Shown here one piece after another: positions 5,392-43,800 of a DNA stretch of 64,000 nt. How positions within the stretch are numbered: position 1 is the first letter of the stretch; every line of letters starts with the position of its first letter. Source of the stretch: Halobacterium sp. CBA1132 (GTDB lineage: Archaea > Halobacteriota > Halobacteria > Halobacteriales > Halobacteriaceae). The DNA lies in contig NZ_BCMZ01000001.1 in assembly GCF_001485535.1 (NCBI RefSeq), positions 1,798,001-1,862,000 of the forward strand, written 5' to 3'. Made by a program: the position numbers and the translations under genes. The notes under the pieces are model-generated. The model searched no databases. It was given only the letters and a program-made list of their open reading frames with translations, and was not told where the DNA came from.

Positions 5392-6996
5392 CTACGACGG
5401 TGCCGTGGTCGTGCCGTCCGTGGAGCCGCTGCCCGTGCCGTCGTTGTTCCGGCACTGTTCAGCGTAGAATCCGAGGTCGAAACTCACGGTGTCGCCCTGA
5501 ATTTCGTTCTCGACCTCGCCGGGAATCTCCCAAGCGAACCCGAGACAGTGGCCGACGTGCGGGTCGAAGCAGGCGCGTCCCTCGGCCGTCCCGGCGGCGT
5601 CGAGCGGGATGCCGTCACCGTCGGAGAGCGCCGAGAGTGCCTCGTTGAGGGTGCCCTCGAAGAACACGAGCTCCGAGGTGAACAGCCCGGCCAGCCCCTC
5701 GAACGTCCCCGGGAGGTCGCTGGGGTCTTCGACGTCCCGGTAGTACGAGGCGTCGTTCCCCGCCGACCCGTCCTCGCCGGCCATCTCGGTCAGCGTCGCG
5801 TCGTTGGCGTCCGGGCCGATACCGACGGTGTACACGTCGGTCGCGGGCGCGGGCGAGGCCGCGCGGGCGTCGTCTGCCGCACTCGTCGGCGAGATGTACG
5901 TCGTACCGTCAGCGCCCGAGAAGGAGTTCCCGTTCGAGAAGACGAGGTCGACGGCCTCCGCCTGCATGCGGCCGTTGGCCCCGAGTTCGTCCTGAGCCTC
6001 CTGAATGCCCTCACCGATGAACGTGCCTTCCGCGACGTCAACGTCCGCGTACGGGTCCGCCGTGCTCGCACCGACAATGGTCGCGAGCGTCTGCCGGAGC
6101 CCGTCGAGCGCGCCGCCCGATGCGGTCAGCGTCGAGAGGTCGTCCGTCAACGGCGCGGCGAGTTGAACGTGCGGCGACCCGCCCGAGGAGCCGTTGAAGA
6201 ACACGACGCCGACCTGCGAGTCGGCACCCAGGGAGTCGAGTTCGTTCACGAGGTTCTTCGCGCCCTGCTCGACGAGGTCGATTTTCGTCGTCTCGTCGTG
6301 CCCGAGGATGGGGTCGTCCTCGTCGACGACGCCGCCGAACTCGTCGTACAGCATCGAGCCGGAGACGTCGATCGTGAGCATGATGTCCGCGCGGTTTACG
6401 CGGTTGTCACAGTCCTCGTCGTACCACAGCCGGACGTCGATGTTCTCCGCGAGGTCCGCGGAGTTCTCCGAGTCGACTTCCTGCTCGGGTTCCGGGTGCG
6501 CGCCGCCGTCCTCGGAGACGTTACCCGCCTGCATCCAGACGTAGCCGGGGTTGTTACAGAGGTGGAGGCTGAACGTAATTTCGCCCCTGTCTCCGGGTTT
6601 CACGTCGGATAGCGAGACCAGCGAGTCCTGCTCGCCGAAGCTCTCCTCGTAGTTCTGGTCGAAGTTCTCGCAGGTGAGGTGGTCGACGAGGTTCCGGCCC
6701 TCGTCGCTGTACTGGTACACCTCGTCGTCGATGCTGATGGACTGTTCGCCGTCGCCGTCGTGGTCCGGGTGCGCGTTGACGAACTCCCAGGACTCGGTCG
6801 GCCCGTAGTAGGACTGCTGCCAGTCGACTTTCAGGTCGAGCGTGCCCGCGGTGATTGTGTTCCCCTCGAACGACTCGGTGTCGTTGAGGTACGCGGACGT
6901 CCCGAGGCCAGCGCCCGCCGACGCCAGTCCGATGCCGCCCAGTCCCGCCAGCACCTTGCGGCGGGAGAGTTCGAACGAAGTGGATTTGTCACTCAT
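5392..6996 (-). CDS. SipW/TasA-type secreted protein with inserted von Willebrand A domain
   Basis: 534 residues from MSDKSTSFELSRRKVLAG. The signal ends GTSAYLNDTESF; TITAGTLDLKVDW follows. The beta-sandwich begins (DVKPGDRGEITFSLHL, NPGYVWMQAG, VRLWYDEDCDN) and is interrupted by a vWA domain at about 203-435 with MIDAS motif DVSGSM near residue 210. The sandwich then resumes (FFEGTLNEALSAL, LGFAWEIPGEVENEIQGD) and closes with FYAEQCRNNDGTG. Unlike the other vWA paralog, where vWA follows the finished sandwich, here it sits inside it. The gene follows paralog 7 with 6 bases between, so the two are probably cotranscribed. Confidence 0.88.
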   Translation of the reverse strand: MSDKSTSFELSRRKVLAGLGGIGLASAGAGLGTSAYLNDTESFEGNTITAGTLDLKVDWQQSYYGPTESWEFVNAHPDHDGDGEQSISIDDEVYQYSDEGRNLVDHLTCENFDQNYEESFGEQDSLVSLSDVKPGDRGEITFSLHLCNNPGYVWMQAGNVSEDGGAHPEPEQEVDSENSADLAENIDVRLWYDEDCDNRVNRADIMLTIDVSGSMLYDEFGGVVDEDDPILGHDETTKIDLVEQGAKNLVNELDSLGADSQVGVVFFNGSSGGSPHVQLAAPLTDDLSTLTASGGALDGLRQTLATIVGASTADPYADVDVAEGTFIGEGIQEAQDELGANGRMQAEAVDLVFSNGNSFSGADGTTYISPTSAADDARAASPAPATDVYTVGIGPDANDATLTEMAGEDGSAGNDASYYRDVEDPSDLPGTFEGLAGLFTSELVFFEGTLNEALSALSDGDGIPLDAAGTAEGRACFDPHVGHCLGFAWEIPGEVENEIQGDTVSFDLGFYAEQCRNNDGTGSGSTDGTTTAPS

Positions 6997-38893: not shown

Positions 38894-38968
38894 GGGTTGG
38901 TGGTCTAGTCAGGCTATGACACCTCCTTGACATGGAGGAGGTCGGCGGTTCAAATCCGCCCCAACCCA
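38894..38968 (+). tRNA. tRNA-Val (GAC)
   Basis: 75 bases, no intron. Acceptor GGGTTGG/CCAACCC, anticodon stem CCTCC/GGAGG with loop TTGACAT, T-arm GGCGG-TTCAAAT-CCGCC, discriminator A. Divergent from trpD. Its 3' tail is repeated four times downstream. Confidence 0.95.
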
Positions 38969-39119
38969 CTTCTACCGACGCAACGACCGCGAGAGACCTC
39001 CGTGTCTCTCGCGTCGTCTCGGTTGTGTGGCGTTCGGCGGATTTGAACCAGACGAGTCGCAGCGTCCGAGCGGAGCGAGGACGAACGTCTCGGCGAGGTT
39101 CACAATCCGCCCCAACCCA
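38969..39119 (+). repeat. tRNA-Val tail repeat, unit 1
   Basis: Order: hairpin CGCGAGAGAC/GTCTCTCGCG, an inverted T-arm copy GGCGGATTTGAACC, a stem on AGACG/CGTCT, then GGTTCACAATCCGCC plus CCAACCCA (39097-39119). The last 23 bases copy the 3' end of tRNA-Val except for a CAC in the T-loop. Confidence 0.75.
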
Positions 39120-39249
39120 TACTTCTCGCGTCGCTCGCCTCCGAGCGACGCGTGTGGCGCGGTTGGAAGGATTTGAACCACGGAAGTCGCGCGCAGCGAA
39201 CGCGGTGAGCGAGCACGTCTTCCGGAGGTTCACAATCCGCCCCCACCCA
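39120..39249 (+). repeat. tRNA-Val tail repeat, unit 2
   Basis: 130 bases. Hairpin CGCGTCGCTCG/CGAGCGACGCG, inverted T-arm copy AGGATTTGAACC, stem CGGAAG/CTTCCG, then GGTTCACAATCCGCC with tail CCCACCCA (one change in the acceptor copy). Confidence 0.75.
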
Positions 39250-39398
39250 CTTCTACTGACGCAACGACCGCGAGAGACCTCTGTGTCTCTCGCGTCGTCT
39301 CGGTTGTGTGGTGTTCGGGCGGACTTGAACTCTGCAAGACGCAGCGCGAGTGATAGCGAGCGACCGTCTTGCTCCAGTTCACAATCCGCTCCAACCCA
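39250..39398 (+). repeat. tRNA-Val tail repeat, unit 3
   Basis: 149 bases. The first hairpin is nearly identical to unit 1; the inverted copy is GGCGGACTTGAACT; the stem GCAAGACG/CGTCTTGC differs from units 1 and 2 on both arms, so pairing is kept. It ends GTTCACAATCCGCTCCAACCCA. Confidence 0.75.
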
Positions 39399-39551
39399 TT
39401 CTCTGAAACCTTCACCGCGAAGCGACTGCTCTGTCGCTTCGCGTGAAGTACTCGTGTGAATGGCGTTCGGCGGATTCGAACCACGGAAGTCGCGCGCAGC
39501 GAACGCAGTGAGCGAGCACGTCTTCCGGAGGTTCACAATCCGCCCAACCCG
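39399..39551 (+). repeat. tRNA-Val tail repeat, unit 4
   Basis: 153 bases. A longer first hairpin (CCGCGAAGCGAC/GTCGCTTCGCG within ttcac/gtgaa), inverted copy GGCGGATTCGAACC, stem CGGAAG/CTTCCG as in unit 2, end GGTTCACAATCCGCC and AACCCG. No gene lies in the rest of the spacer up to 39659. Confidence 0.75.
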
Positions 39552-39658
39552 CTTCTACTGAACTTACGCCGATGAGTACCGCGTATCGTGTGCGAGTTCG
39601 GTCAGATGAGACATTCGGGGAAGGCTCTTGTCTCCCGCAGGCGATTGGAGAGGTATCG

Positions 39659-39979: not shown

Positions 39980-40040
39980 CACTGTCGCCGGCAGGGCGAC
40001 GAAGAAACCGATATGAGTCTACCGCCCCAACAGAACAGTA

Positions 40041-40655
40041 ATGAGCGAGGCAGACGGGATAGTCGGCGCAAACGACACCCGCGAGGAGATTATGGAGGCG
40101 ACGTTCCGGGCGCTCAGCGAGCACGGGTACAAGGACGTCCGGGTCCGGGACATCGGCGCGGAGATGGAGCTGTCGCGGCAGGTCATCCACTACCACTTCG
40201 ACGGGAAGTACGACTTGCTGTCGTCGTTCCTGAAGTACGTCATCGACCAGTACGAGGGCAGCGTCGAGGTTGCCGAGGACATGGACCCGCGGTCGGAGTT
40301 GGACGCGCGCATCGACCAGTGTCTGTTCGGGCCGGAGTTCGAGGAGTTCACGCACTGGGACCGCATGAAGGTGTACCACGAGCTGTACGCACACGCGCGA
40401 AACGACGACGAGCACCGCGAGCTCTTCGAGGAGCACTACGCGCGGCTCCGCGGCAGCATCGTCGCCGTCATCGAGGACGGCATCAAGCAGGGCGTCTTCC
40501 GTGAGGTGAACGCCGAACGGATGGGGCAGCTAATCACGGACGTCATTCACGCGGCCCGCGAGCGCCGCATCTCCCTCGGGCACGAGGACGCGCCCGCGGA
40601 AGCCCGCGCGGCAATCGACGAGTTCGTGCTGGACTCGCTGGAGCGCGACGACTAG
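40041..40655 (+). CDS. TetR/AcrR-family regulator
   Basis: 204 residues. The N-terminal helix-turn-helix (residues 12-60: TREEIMEATFRALSEHGYKD, SRQVIHYHFDGKYDLLSSF) is typical; the C-terminal all-helical part is the ligand and dimer domain. Half-sites TCTACC (40018-40023) and CAGTAA (40036-40041) just before its ATG resemble the palindromes in front of the next three transcripts. It is therefore the best candidate to control the flavoprotein, pirin and aldehyde dehydrogenase. Confidence 0.85.
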   Translation: MSEADGIVGANDTREEIMEATFRALSEHGYKDVRVRDIGAEMELSRQVIHYHFDGKYDLLSSFLKYVIDQYEGSVEVAEDMDPRSELDARIDQCLFGPEFEEFTHWDRMKVYHELYAHARNDDEHRELFEEHYARLRGSIVAVIEDGIKQGVFREVNAERMGQLITDVIHAARERRISLGHEDAPAEARAAIDEFVLDSLERDD

Positions 40656-40745
40656 CCCGCTCTGTTTCTGCTGCGTTCACTGCGTCCAGCGGGTGCGCTG
40701 TCGCTGGGCAGTCACGCGAAAAATATCGGGTGAGAAGCGGCCGCG

Positions 40746-41309
40746 TTACAGTTCGGGGACGTCCGACGGCATGTCGAAGTCGTGGTAGTACTCGCCCTTC
40801 TCCTTCGAGAGGATGTCGAGAACTGCGGCGGCGCCGTCGCCGACAGCGATGGCGGCCTGCCACTTCTCGGCGCGACCCATCGCGCCGGTCGCGTAGACGC
40901 CCTCGACGCTGGTCTCCATGTCGAGGTTGACGTCGACGACGTCCTCGTCGGTGAACTCGCAGCCGAGGTCTTCGGCGAGGTCGCGGTTACCGCCGGTCGC
41001 GAGCACGACGTAGTCGGCCTCGTAGTCGCCGTCGGCGGTCGTGAGCGAGAAGCCGTCACCGGACTGCTCGACGGCGGTGACTTCCTCGTCCTCGTGGAGG
41101 TCGGCGCCGCGGGCCTTCGCTTGCTTCTGCGCGATGTCGACGAAGGTCATCCCGTCCATGGAGCGGACGCCCGGGTAGTTGAAGAGGTGGGCCTTGTGCA
41201 TCCACGTCTCGTCGGTGTCGAAGACGACTGTTTCGAGGTCGTTTTTGGCTGCGAACTGTGCTGCGGACAGGCCGGCGGGACCGCCGCCGACGACTGCTAC
41301 GTCTACCAT
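40746..41309 (-). CDS. Thioredoxin-reductase-like FAD/NAD(P) oxidoreductase
   Basis: 187 residues from MVDVAVVGGGPAGLSAAQFA. FAD-binding GGGPAG at the start, ATGGNRDLAEDLG in the middle, and the C-terminal FAD block VEGVYATGAMGRAEKW. It is much shorter than thioredoxin reductase (about 310) and lacks the CxxC active site and an evident separate NADPH domain. It belongs to the compact haloarchaeal flavoproteins of this fold. The palindrome at 41341 overlaps its promoter. Confidence 0.85.
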   Translation of the reverse strand: MVDVAVVGGGPAGLSAAQFAAKNDLETVVFDTDETWMHKAHLFNYPGVRSMDGMTFVDIAQKQAKARGADLHEDEEVTAVEQSGDGFSLTTADGDYEADYVVLATGGNRDLAEDLGCEFTDEDVVDVNLDMETSVEGVYATGAMGRAEKWQAAIAVGDGAAAVLDILSKEKGEYYHDFDMPSDVPEL

Positions 41310-41340
41310 AGTCGTGTGTCCGTGCTCCCCGAGGAAGTAA

Positions 41341-41356
41341 TTTACCATCAGGTAAA
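41341..41356. promoter_or_regulatory. Operator O1, TTTACC-n4-GGTAAA
   Basis: Perfect 6-4-6 palindrome TTTACC-atca-GGTAAA, 32 bases upstream of the flavoprotein ATG and overlapping its TATA-like TAAATTA on the minus strand. Matching sites lie at 42176 and 42288. Confidence 0.65.
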
Positions 41357-41416
41357 AGCCGGCAGCGACTGCCGAATCGGGGAACAGAGAACTGTCAGCG
41401 GCGACGGGACGACCGT

Positions 41417-42163
41417 TCAGAGGACGAACGGGCCGCGCTGCTGAATCGGCTCGTCGTGGGGCTGACCGGCGACGGCGACCACGCGGAGGGCGGAGTCGGT
41501 GCGGAGTTCGACCGCGGTCTCGTCCGTGACTGTGAAGACGTCGCCCTCGCCGAACTCGCTGCCGTCGACGGTTCCGTCGCCGGAGACGCCGTAGACGAAG
41601 CCCGTCCAGTCCTCGGGAATCGTCCACTCCCAAGCGTCCGAGACGCGGACGTCGAGGTACTCCATGGGCGTGTGGAGGTCCAGCGGCGACTCGTCGCCGA
41701 CGACCGTCGTCACCGTCGCGTCCTCGTACTCCGTCGTGGGGAGGTCCGCGCTGGTGGCGTCGACGTAGTCGGGGTCGGCGTCTTTCTTGTCGCGCGGGAG
41801 GTTCACCCACAACTGGAGGCCGTTACAGCCCCGATTTCCGGCGGGGAACTCGGAGTGGCGGATGCCGCTGCCGGTCGTGATGCGCATGGCGTCGCCCTCC
41901 TCGGCGACGTTGCTGACGCCCAGCGAGTCCTCGTGTTCCATCCCGCCGTCGATCATGTAGGAGACGATTTCGAACCCGCGGTGGGGGTGCATCGGGAACC
42001 CCTGTTCGGGGTCGATGTAGAACCGCTCGAAGAGCACGAACGGGTCGAGGTTCTGCGGGTGGTTGTTCGTCGGGAACGCGCGATTCGAGTTGACGCCCGT
42101 CCCGTGACGGACTCGCTCGCCGGGGACGGGGCCGTGGTCGGTGGATGCGTCGTTGCGGCTCAT
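41417..42163 (-). CDS. Pirin-family protein
   Basis: 248 residues from MSRNDASTDHGPVPGERV. A cupin pair. The metal-site His/Glu cluster is HPHRGFEIVSYMIDGGMEHE plus GSGIRHSEF; the C-terminal cupin has lost its ligands, as usual. Some pirins act as quercetinases, others as redox-sensitive cofactors. Divergent from the aldehyde dehydrogenase with operators between. Confidence 0.9.
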   Translation of the reverse strand: MSRNDASTDHGPVPGERVRHGTGVNSNRAFPTNNHPQNLDPFVLFERFYIDPEQGFPMHPHRGFEIVSYMIDGGMEHEDSLGVSNVAEEGDAMRITTGSGIRHSEFPAGNRGCNGLQLWVNLPRDKKDADPDYVDATSADLPTTEYEDATVTTVVGDESPLDLHTPMEYLDVRVSDAWEWTIPEDWTGFVYGVSGDGTVDGSEFGEGDVFTVTDETAVELRTDSALRVVAVAGQPHDEPIQQRGPFVL

Positions 42164-42175
42164 GGTTCTCCTTTG

Positions 42176-42191
42176 TTTACCAGACAGTAAA
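42176..42191. promoter_or_regulatory. Operator O2, TTTACC-n4-AGTAAA
   Basis: TTTACC-agac-AGTAAA, one mismatch from a perfect palindrome, 13 bases upstream of the pirin ATG. Confidence 0.6.
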
Positions 42192-42277
42192 ACACGTCGG
42201 ATGGGAGCGGCGCTCTCCCAAACTCCCGACCTGTTCGCCGGTTGTGAATCGGCGGATGTCACTCCATTCCACCCGCT

Positions 42278-42303
42278 TTTACCGCCTTCTACCGTTTGGT
42301 AAA
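42278..42303. promoter_or_regulatory. Operator O3 with extra half-site
   Basis: TCTACC-gttt-GGTAAA at 42288-42303, 6 bases before the aldehyde dehydrogenase ATG. A further TTTACC half-site at 42278 lies exactly one helical turn (10 bases) upstream, which would allow two dimers on one DNA face. Confidence 0.62.
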
Positions 42304-42309
42304 ACGTAG

Positions 42310-43800
42310 ATGACTACCGACCTGTCCATCGACGCCGACTGGAGCGAGCAGTACATCGACGGCGAGTGGGTCGCCGCCGACAGCGGGGAGACCATCGCCG
42401 TCGAGGACCCCTCGACGCGCGAAGTCGTCGCAGAAGTCCCCGCTGGGACCGAGAGCGACGTGAACGCCGCCTACGAGGCCGCCGCCGAAGCCCAGACCGA
42501 GTGGGCGCAGACGCCCCCCGCGCAGCGCTCGGCTGTCGTCCAGCAGTTCCTGCAGGCACTCCAAGAACACGACGAGGGCGTTGTCGACCTGCTGGCCCAC
42601 GAGGTCGGTGGCTCCCGGATTATGGGCGAGACGTCCATCCAAATCGCCTCCGACCACGCCGGCGAGGCGGCGACGCTCCCGCGACGCATGAAAGGCGAAC
42701 ACGCCGACTCCAACATCCCCGGTAAGGAGAACATCGTCGAGCGAGGCCCGAAGGGCGTCGTCACCGTCATCTCTCCTTGGAACTTCCCCCTGAATCTGAG
42801 CGCGCGGGCGGTCCTCCCGGCTATCGCGGCGGGCAACAGCGTCGTCCTCAAGCCGTCGACGAACTCCCCGATTACGGGCGGCCTGCTGTTCGCGAAGCTC
42901 TTCGAAGAGACCGACCTCCCCGAGGGCGTCGTGAACGTGGTCACCGGTCGTGGCTCTGAAATCGGTGACCGCGTCGCCAGCCATCCCGAGAGCGACGTCG
43001 TCTCGTTCACCGGCTCCACGGAAGTCGGCCAACACGTCGCCGGTCTCGCCGGCGAGAACCTCGCAATCCCGGCGATGGAACTCGGCGGCAACAACGCCCA
43101 CGTCGTCACGGACGACGCCGACGTGGACCGCGCCGTCGACGGCGCGACGTTCGGGTCGTTCGTCCACCAGGGCCAGGTCTGCATCTCCATCAACCGCCAC
43201 ATCGTCCACGAGGACGTCTACGACGAGTACGTCCGGAAGCTCACCGAGCGCGCCGAAGAACTCGCCGTCGGCAGCGCCCACGAGCCCGACACCGTGGTCG
43301 GGCCCATCATCGACGAGTCCCAGCGCGACGAGATGCTCGAATACGTCGAGGAAACCATCGACGCGGGCGCGACCCTCGAAACCGGCGGCGAAACCGCCGA
43401 CATCGACGGCGTCGACGACTCCCTCGTCGTCAAGCCGACCGTTCTCTCCGGCGTCACGAACGACATGGCGGCCGCGGACAACGAGCACTTCGGGCCGATT
43501 GCGCCCGTCATCCCGTTCTCGGACGTCGACGAGGCTGTCGAAATTGCCAACGACACCGAGTACGGGCTCTCCGGCAGCGTCCACGCCGGCGACCTCTCGG
43601 TCGCGAAAGACATCGCCGAGCGCATGGAGACCGGCAACGTCCACATCAACGACCAGCCCATCAACGACGAAGCCCACGTCCCGTTCAGCGGCATCGGCGC
43701 GTCCGGCATGGGGACGTACAACAGCGACGCCTTCCTCCACGAGGTCACGGAGACGAAGTGGATTTCCGTCCAGCACGAACCGCGCGACTACCCGCTGTGA
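42310..43800 (+). CDS. NAD(P)-dependent aldehyde dehydrogenase
   Basis: 496 residues. ISPWNFPLNL, the NAD site FTGSTEVGQHVA, catalytic Glu in MELGGNNAHVV, catalytic Cys in HQGQVCISINR, and ENEHFGPI-like NEHFGPIAPV. It oxidises an aldehyde to its acid; the sequence is nearest to the benzaldehyde/vanillin dehydrogenase style (QGQVCI rather than GQ.C.A). Likely derepressed with the pirin and flavoprotein through the shared operator. Confidence 0.92.
   Translation: MTTDLSIDADWSEQYIDGEWVAADSGETIAVEDPSTREVVAEVPAGTESDVNAAYEAAAEAQTEWAQTPPAQRSAVVQQFLQALQEHDEGVVDLLAHEVGGSRIMGETSIQIASDHAGEAATLPRRMKGEHADSNIPGKENIVERGPKGVVTVISPWNFPLNLSARAVLPAIAAGNSVVLKPSTNSPITGGLLFAKLFEETDLPEGVVNVVTGRGSEIGDRVASHPESDVVSFTGSTEVGQHVAGLAGENLAIPAMELGGNNAHVVTDDADVDRAVDGATFGSFVHQGQVCISINRHIVHEDVYDEYVRKLTERAEELAVGSAHEPDTVVGPIIDESQRDEMLEYVEETIDAGATLETGGETADIDGVDDSLVVKPTVLSGVTNDMAAADNEHFGPIAPVIPFSDVDEAVEIANDTEYGLSGSVHAGDLSVAKDIAERMETGNVHINDQPINDEAHVPFSGIGASGMGTYNSDAFLHEVTETKWISVQHEPRDYPL

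Follow-up and report, generated by a model that had tools for sequence, protein, structure and literature searches.

A conserved palindromic operator at flavoprotein, pirin and aldehyde dehydrogenase promoters and its probable TetR-family repressor in haloarchaea

Genes and palindromes of the locus

The window, that is, the whole 64,000-nucleotide stretch that was analysed, is part of the 3.01-Mb genome (G000) of a haloarchaeon. Four genes in it were studied. The first, on the plus strand (40041-40655), encodes a TetR-family regulator of 204 aa with TetR_N and TetR_C_6 domains, the predicted repressor of the regulon described here, for which orthologues were found in 56 loci. When this protein was scanned against genome contigs, its closest named relative was that of Halobacterium sp. 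KA-4, with 92% identity. Next to it on the minus strand lie the genes for a thioredoxin-reductase-like FAD protein of 187 aa (40746-41309; hereafter, the flavoprotein) and for a pirin of 248 aa (41417-42163; Pfam Pirin 82.3 bits, cut-off 26.1; Pirin_C 50.9 bits, cut-off 27). The fourth gene, on the plus strand (42310-43800), encodes an aldehyde dehydrogenase (ALDH) of 496 aa, which matched Pfam Aldedh with 539.4 bits and reached the cut-off of none of the NCBIfam models listed (25 of 44). The flavoprotein, which matched Pyr_redox_2 in two stretches, is a stand-alone FAD domain of the thioredoxin reductase type that lacks both the central NADPH domain and a CxxC motif. It was matched over its full length by PDB chain 2cvj (180 aa), the nearest full-length solved chain, and members of its family were found in 51 of 59 related genomes.

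Upstream of these genes, a tRNA-Val (gac) gene at 38894-38969 is followed by repeated blocks, the whole region covering 38894-39559 of the window. A segment of 85 nt occurs twice at 95% identity, its first copy overlapping the end of the tRNA, and a 42-nt motif occurs four times in copies 130-154 nt apart. These repeats may have been left behind by integration events that recurred at the tRNA.

Three palindromes of the 6-4-6 type had been claimed in an earlier note on this DNA, at 41341, 42176 and 42288, and all three are present in the letters, with zero, one and one mismatches, respectively, to the candidate operator motif, the 16-bp palindrome TTTACC-n4-GGTAAA. Operator 1 (TTTACCATCAGGTAAA, 41341-41356) is an exact palindrome located 31 bp 5' of the flavoprotein ATG. 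Operator 2 (TTTACCAGACAGTAAA, 42176-42191) lies 12 bp 5' of the pirin ATG, and operator 3 (TCTACCGTTTGGTAAA, 42288-42303) lies 6 bp 5' of the ALDH ATG.

With up to three mismatches, six matches to the motif were found in the window versus 3.19 expected, which is near chance. The genome-wide scan that had been suggested in the earlier note was also run. With at most one mismatch, it returned four sites in the 3.01 Mb, and three of these were the sites of this locus, while the reversed control pattern returned none. With at most two mismatches, 19 sites were found versus 17 for the control. Because this is the level of chance, the two-mismatch sites were rejected as additional members, and further members of the regulon were not visible in the window genome. 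The fourth one-mismatch site (C2:213800) was rejected too, since it resembles another motif, TTTACTC-n2-GGGTAAA, seen in several relatives. The latter is a distinct conserved palindrome (C2:213800-213815 of G000, L145:5801-5816; similar sites in G001, G005, G009, G041 and G052), which in the window genome lies upstream of a 137-aa ORF and probably serves another regulator. Two related sites ending in GGTAAC were observed 30 bp apart at C1:832940 and C1:832970 of the same genome (L146:4941 and 4971), upstream of a 94-aa ORF resembling a helix-turn-helix protein.

Two further proposals of the earlier note, both concerning half-sites, did not survive. The first was that TTTACC at 42278-42283, ten bp before operator 3, is an extra part of that operator. 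This hexamer was kept in only two of seven distinct ALDH promoters, the others having TTTACG, TTTACT, TTATCC, TTTAGT or TTTTCC, and a T-rich box was always present approximately 27-33 bp before the ATG, a position that fits the TATA box of a leaderless transcript. In the five promoters with a 6-bp operator spacing, the consensus was CCCgCTTTTAC. The sequence TTTTACC (42277-42283, plus strand, 27-33 bp 5' of the ATG) is, to judge from this comparison, probably the TATA box of the ALDH promoter rather than an operator half-site.

The second proposal was autoregulation of the TetR gene through half-sites at its start. The hexamers TCTACC (40018-40023) and CAGTAA (40036-40041) are separated by 12 bp, not 4 bp, and are missing in L017, L018 and L022. 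What does recur upstream of the gene is a likely TATA box, GATATGAG (40010-40017, plus strand, 24-31 bp 5' of the ATG), with GAAAC just before it; a similar element was found in L016, L017, L018 and L022. The position of this element suggests a promoter role and a leaderless TetR transcript. No palindrome was seen in the listed TetR promoters of the clade to which the window belongs, and thus autoregulation, which is common though not universal among TetR repressors, was not seen here.

Conservation of the motif and its link to the TetR gene

A scan with the TetR protein against genome contigs, in which each of 84,980 species is represented by one genome, gave the 56 loci (675 kb). The exact motif occurred in 53 copies in 40 of them; with at most one mismatch, it was found in 52 loci, and with at most two, in 54. 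Controls were run on these TetR-bearing loci only. There was not a single exact copy of 59 other half-sites of the same letter composition, nor of TTTACC/GGTAAA at spacers of 0-3 and 5-12 bp.

The motif was checked in the same promoters of relatives and was present there, as expected if flavoprotein, pirin and ALDH form the small regulon under common operators that had been proposed earlier. Among 26 non-duplicate flavoprotein promoters (copies with at least 75% identity), the distance from site to ATG was 31 bp in 25 and 32 bp in the remaining one. A pirin site at 11-13 bp before the ATG was found in 19 of 27 pirin promoters. For ALDH, the spacing was 6 bp (five promoters) or 4 bp (one promoter) in six of seven distinct promoters, the seventh having no site. 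L126, L127 and L133 duplicate the contigs of L016, L017 and L052 and were left out of these spacing counts, though not out of the promoter listing. No site was found in the flavoprotein promoters of L020 and L070, in the pirin promoter of L041, or anywhere within the 12.6 kb of L040, where TetR is intact. In L071 (Halorubrum ezzemoulense DSM 17463; 6001-6302), the TetR match was broken into two fragments (residues 10-63 and 156-202), and no operator site was present at the locus. This is in line with joint decay of TetR and site, and the locus may be counted in favour of the link between them.

Since the sites lie within core promoters and TTTTAC is TATA-like, it was considered whether the palindromes might be BRE/TATA sequence that is symmetric by chance. 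The probability of this is practically negligible: conservation extends to both arms and to the 4-bp spacer, the counts at other spacings were zero, and paralogous flavoprotein promoters, which need core promoters too, had a site in none of 17 cases, the best match having at least four mismatches. Close flavoproteins (at least 76% identity) had a site at -31 in 13 of 13 cases, with at most one mismatch in 12 and two in one. These flavoprotein figures come from 30 loci out of a longer match list.

The link to TetR was then followed in the 59 related genomes, of which 19, including the window genome, had a TetR orthologue at an E value of at most 1e-50. It was demonstrated that all 19 carried a site with at most one mismatch in the neighbourhood of TetR. 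Counted over whole genomes, the TetR-positive ones had 71 sites versus 15 for the reversed control, and the 40 TetR-negative ones had 45 versus 71. Pirins with a site were found in 11 of 14 cases in TetR-positive genomes (the pirins of G017, G021 and G029 had none) and in 0 of 4 cases in TetR-negative genomes; 18 of 19 matches entered this comparison, the pirin of G009, cut by a contig end, being left out. Site presence therefore appeared to track the copy of the regulon and not the enzyme family.

In two relatives, sites were found at targets that are unlinked to TetR. The genome G005 has a flavoprotein-pirin-ALDH cluster with sites approximately 1 Mb from its TetR gene, and G017 has the second enzyme set (set B, described below) with three sites on a contig other than that of TetR. 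Control of these clusters would act in trans. An exact operator of G005 was observed approximately 215 bp past the 3' end of TetR (L128:5654-5669). In G002, G004 and G011, which belong to the genus Halobacterium, a DoxX gene not linked to TetR carries a site, 89-102 bp upstream of its start. The DoxX orthologue of the window genome (L200) had no site, the best match having six mismatches, and was rejected as a member there.

The earlier note had named the neighbouring TetR protein as the regulator, and the distribution of the motif, which followed TetR in 52 of 56 loci and in 19 of 19 TetR-positive relatives, agrees with this. One might suppose instead that the palindrome is bound by some other, unlinked regulator and that the TetR gene is a mere neighbour, because the TetR promoter of the window clade lacks an operator and binding by TetR is predicted from sequence. 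Such an arrangement would have to coexist with sites that follow TetR across the 59 genomes, with the sites of G005 and G017 that are found both beside TetR and at unlinked targets, and with an operator placed at the divergent TetR/amidohydrolase promoter in a second clade. In 33 of the 56 orthologue loci, TetR had a site no more than 250 bp upstream, and in that clade this site is common to TetR and the divergent amidohydrolase gene; the comparison of these two promoters rests on the rows listed, spacing totals and direct reads. The action of another regulator is thus very improbable, and the pairing of TetR (40041-40655) with the palindrome as repressor and operator is put forward with high confidence.

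A second enzyme set under the same operator

A different enzyme set (set B) accompanies this TetR and operator in Halorubrum and Natrialbaceae. It consists of an amidohydrolase, an FAA hydrolase, a TatD-like protein, a beta-propeller protein, DoxX, a CoA-transferase and a thiolase. Sites were located before the amidohydrolase gene in 35 of 37 cases, before the CoA-transferase gene in 8 of 9, and before the TatD-like gene and the BNR beta-propeller gene in 26 of 26 each; a further three TatD-like genes were too close to the end of a contig to be scored. DoxX is a recurrent neighbour of this set and of the flavoprotein-pirin-ALDH set alike.

When 71 orthologues were placed on a tree, 26 had set A (flavoprotein/pirin), 40 had set B, two had both and three had neither. 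Set B was scored by the amidohydrolase and/or the FAA hydrolase, and genes that would lie past the contig end or the flank were counted as absent. The four set labels required seven changes versus the least possible three on this tree, which was built quickly and has many weakly supported forks. Because of this excess, exchange of the enzyme sets probably took place on more than one occasion. The regulon offers a clear case in which one operator was kept while the controlled enzymes changed.

A second, weaker palindrome with two to three mismatches adjoined the first in 25 of the 56 loci, at an offset of 19 bp in 24 and of 18 bp in one. In its double form, the operator reads TTGACC-n4-GGTTAA, 3 bp, TTTACC-n4-GGTAAA (for example, in L024, L051, L056 and L060) and lies 5' of the amidohydrolase/TetR pair. 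The 19-bp distance suggests cooperative dimers, and these double operators of the other clade provide a natural system for the study of cooperative binding in an archaeon.

Proposed mechanism, its signal and known systems

The TetR protein itself has the features of its family. Its N-terminal helix-turn-helix matched TetR_N with 39.9 bits (cut-off 24), its C-terminal domain matched TetR_C_6 with 31.7 bits (cut-off 27), and its structure model contained nine helices with a mean pLDDT of 81.5. The best NCBIfam match was BetI, at 48.7 bits, far below the equivalog cut-off of 201.3. Palindromic operators in or next to target promoters, a trait of TetR-family regulators, were found at the level of sequence. 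The recognition helix RQVIHYH (R46-H52) is invariant in 32 aligned orthologues. Orthologues with 54-64% identity have close variants of it, and it differs in the four TetR paralogues of the window genome.

The mechanism would be as follows. A TetR dimer binds the 16-bp palindrome, with one operator at each of the three core promoters. The flavoprotein operator would lie just upstream of the BRE/TATA region and touch it, the pirin operator would lie on a TATA-like stretch, and the ALDH operator would lie between the TATA box and the transcription start. At all three promoters, access of TBP/TFB or RNA polymerase would be blocked by the dimer. An inducer, either a ligand of the pocket or an electrophile or oxidant reacting with C94, would weaken DNA binding, and the three enzymes would be produced together. 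The operators stand at differing distances from their genes, yet all of them touch or overlap the predicted core promoter. This arrangement speaks for repression by steric block.

Most members of the TetR family are repressors. Activation by TetR, at least at the flavoprotein promoter, was nevertheless weighed, since the site there (-32 to -47, next to the BRE) has a fixed 31-bp spacing and lies upstream of BRE/TATA, and since, according to PMC9426492, the haloarchaeal regulator OxsR activates from a motif so placed. At pirin and ALDH, the sites lie over the TATA box or between it and the start codon, where activation is implausible. An activator role is therefore improbable, and repression by TetR can be assumed with considerable confidence. 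The likely overall reading of the locus is that this repressor blocks core promoters until a small molecule, which may be electrophilic, releases it.

The nature of the signal is a more tentative matter. The earlier note had suggested, from the enzymes, a response to aldehydes, quinones or other electrophiles. Pirin, ALDH, DoxX and the flavoprotein, together with a usually sole invariant cysteine, would fit such a signal and suggest electrophiles or oxidants of a reactive kind, as in the case of NemR. This cysteine, C94, was present in 55 of 55 readable orthologue loci (L071, with its two fragments, could not be read) and in 19 of 19 TetR-positive relatives, the window genome included; three of these 19 repeat contigs of the 56-locus set. 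It is the only cysteine of the window TetR and usually the only one in the orthologues, and none of the four TetR paralogues of the window genome has a cysteine at this position. In the predicted structure, it lies near the end of helix 83-96; in TetR proteins, the corresponding helix borders the ligand pocket. Nevertheless, C94 is a doubtful candidate for the switch, and induction of the electrophile type has a chance somewhat below even. A broader version, according to which a thiol switch at C94 releases TetR and, in the course of haloarchaeal evolution, this one sensor with its operator came to govern two unrelated enzyme sets for the same class of reactive compounds, with DoxX as the common partner, must be regarded as speculative. 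A TetR protein with a single cysteine makes the thiol-switch hypothesis testable by one substitution.

Alternatively, TetR could sense a nutrient or an intermediate, perhaps an acyl-CoA, a cyclic amide or a lactone, and the enzymes would then be steps of its use and not of defence. This alternative is about the signal, and the repressor-operator mechanism could hold under it as well. Ligands of the acyl-CoA, cyclic amide or lactone-like kinds are sensed by some TetR proteins, and the targets in the other clade include an amidohydrolase of the PRK08204 subfamily, an FAA hydrolase, a family III CoA-transferase and a thiolase. Set B may argue equally for a catabolic signal, and it gives no hint of electrophile defence. 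DoxX, however, stands beside both sets, and pirin, ALDH and the flavoprotein with DoxX would fit detoxification better; a usually sole invariant cysteine also suits a thiol sensor. A catabolic signal is accordingly a serious possibility, if not a probable one.

Among known systems, the regulon proposed here, with TetR as repressor, resembles that of NemR, which represses nemRA-gloA in E. coli, in the TetR family of the regulator and in having a flavoenzyme and an aldehyde-detoxifying enzyme as targets. Cysteine-based sensing of electrophiles and hypochlorite by NemR is described in PMC5297802 and PMC7464077. The differences are considerable. NemR has six cysteines, as stated in PMC7464077, while the window TetR has one (C94), so the multi-cysteine switch with C106/K175 has no counterpart here. 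The targets of NemR, old yellow enzyme (nemA) and glyoxalase (gloA), are not homologous to the thioredoxin-reductase-like FAD protein, pirin and ALDH. The analogy with NemR is thus limited to the proposed function.

OxsR of Haloferax volcanii is likewise haloarchaeal and has a single conserved sensing cysteine; it differs in being a thiol-based regulator of the TrmB family, not TetR, that has a CG-rich motif and acts as both activator and repressor of a large network (PMC9426492). FadR of Sulfolobus acidocaldarius is an archaeal TetR-family regulator, but it controls fatty-acid metabolism in a crenarchaeon, and the likeness drawn here is one of family (PMC6449355). The closest solved structure is PDB 3crj, a TetR protein of Haloarcula marismortui (TM 0.83; 114 bits by profile), which at 32% identity is a distant paralogue and not an orthologue and is listed only as a transcription regulator.

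A literature search that reached few subscription papers found none on this regulon, on the motif or on haloarchaeal pirin/TetR regulons. The well-conserved regulon is real and appears to be of a known kind, a TetR repressor with palindromic operators, and it supplies a testable regulator-operator pair for haloarchaea. New beyond the earlier note are the second enzyme set under the same TetR and operator, the double operators, and the invariant and usually sole C94.
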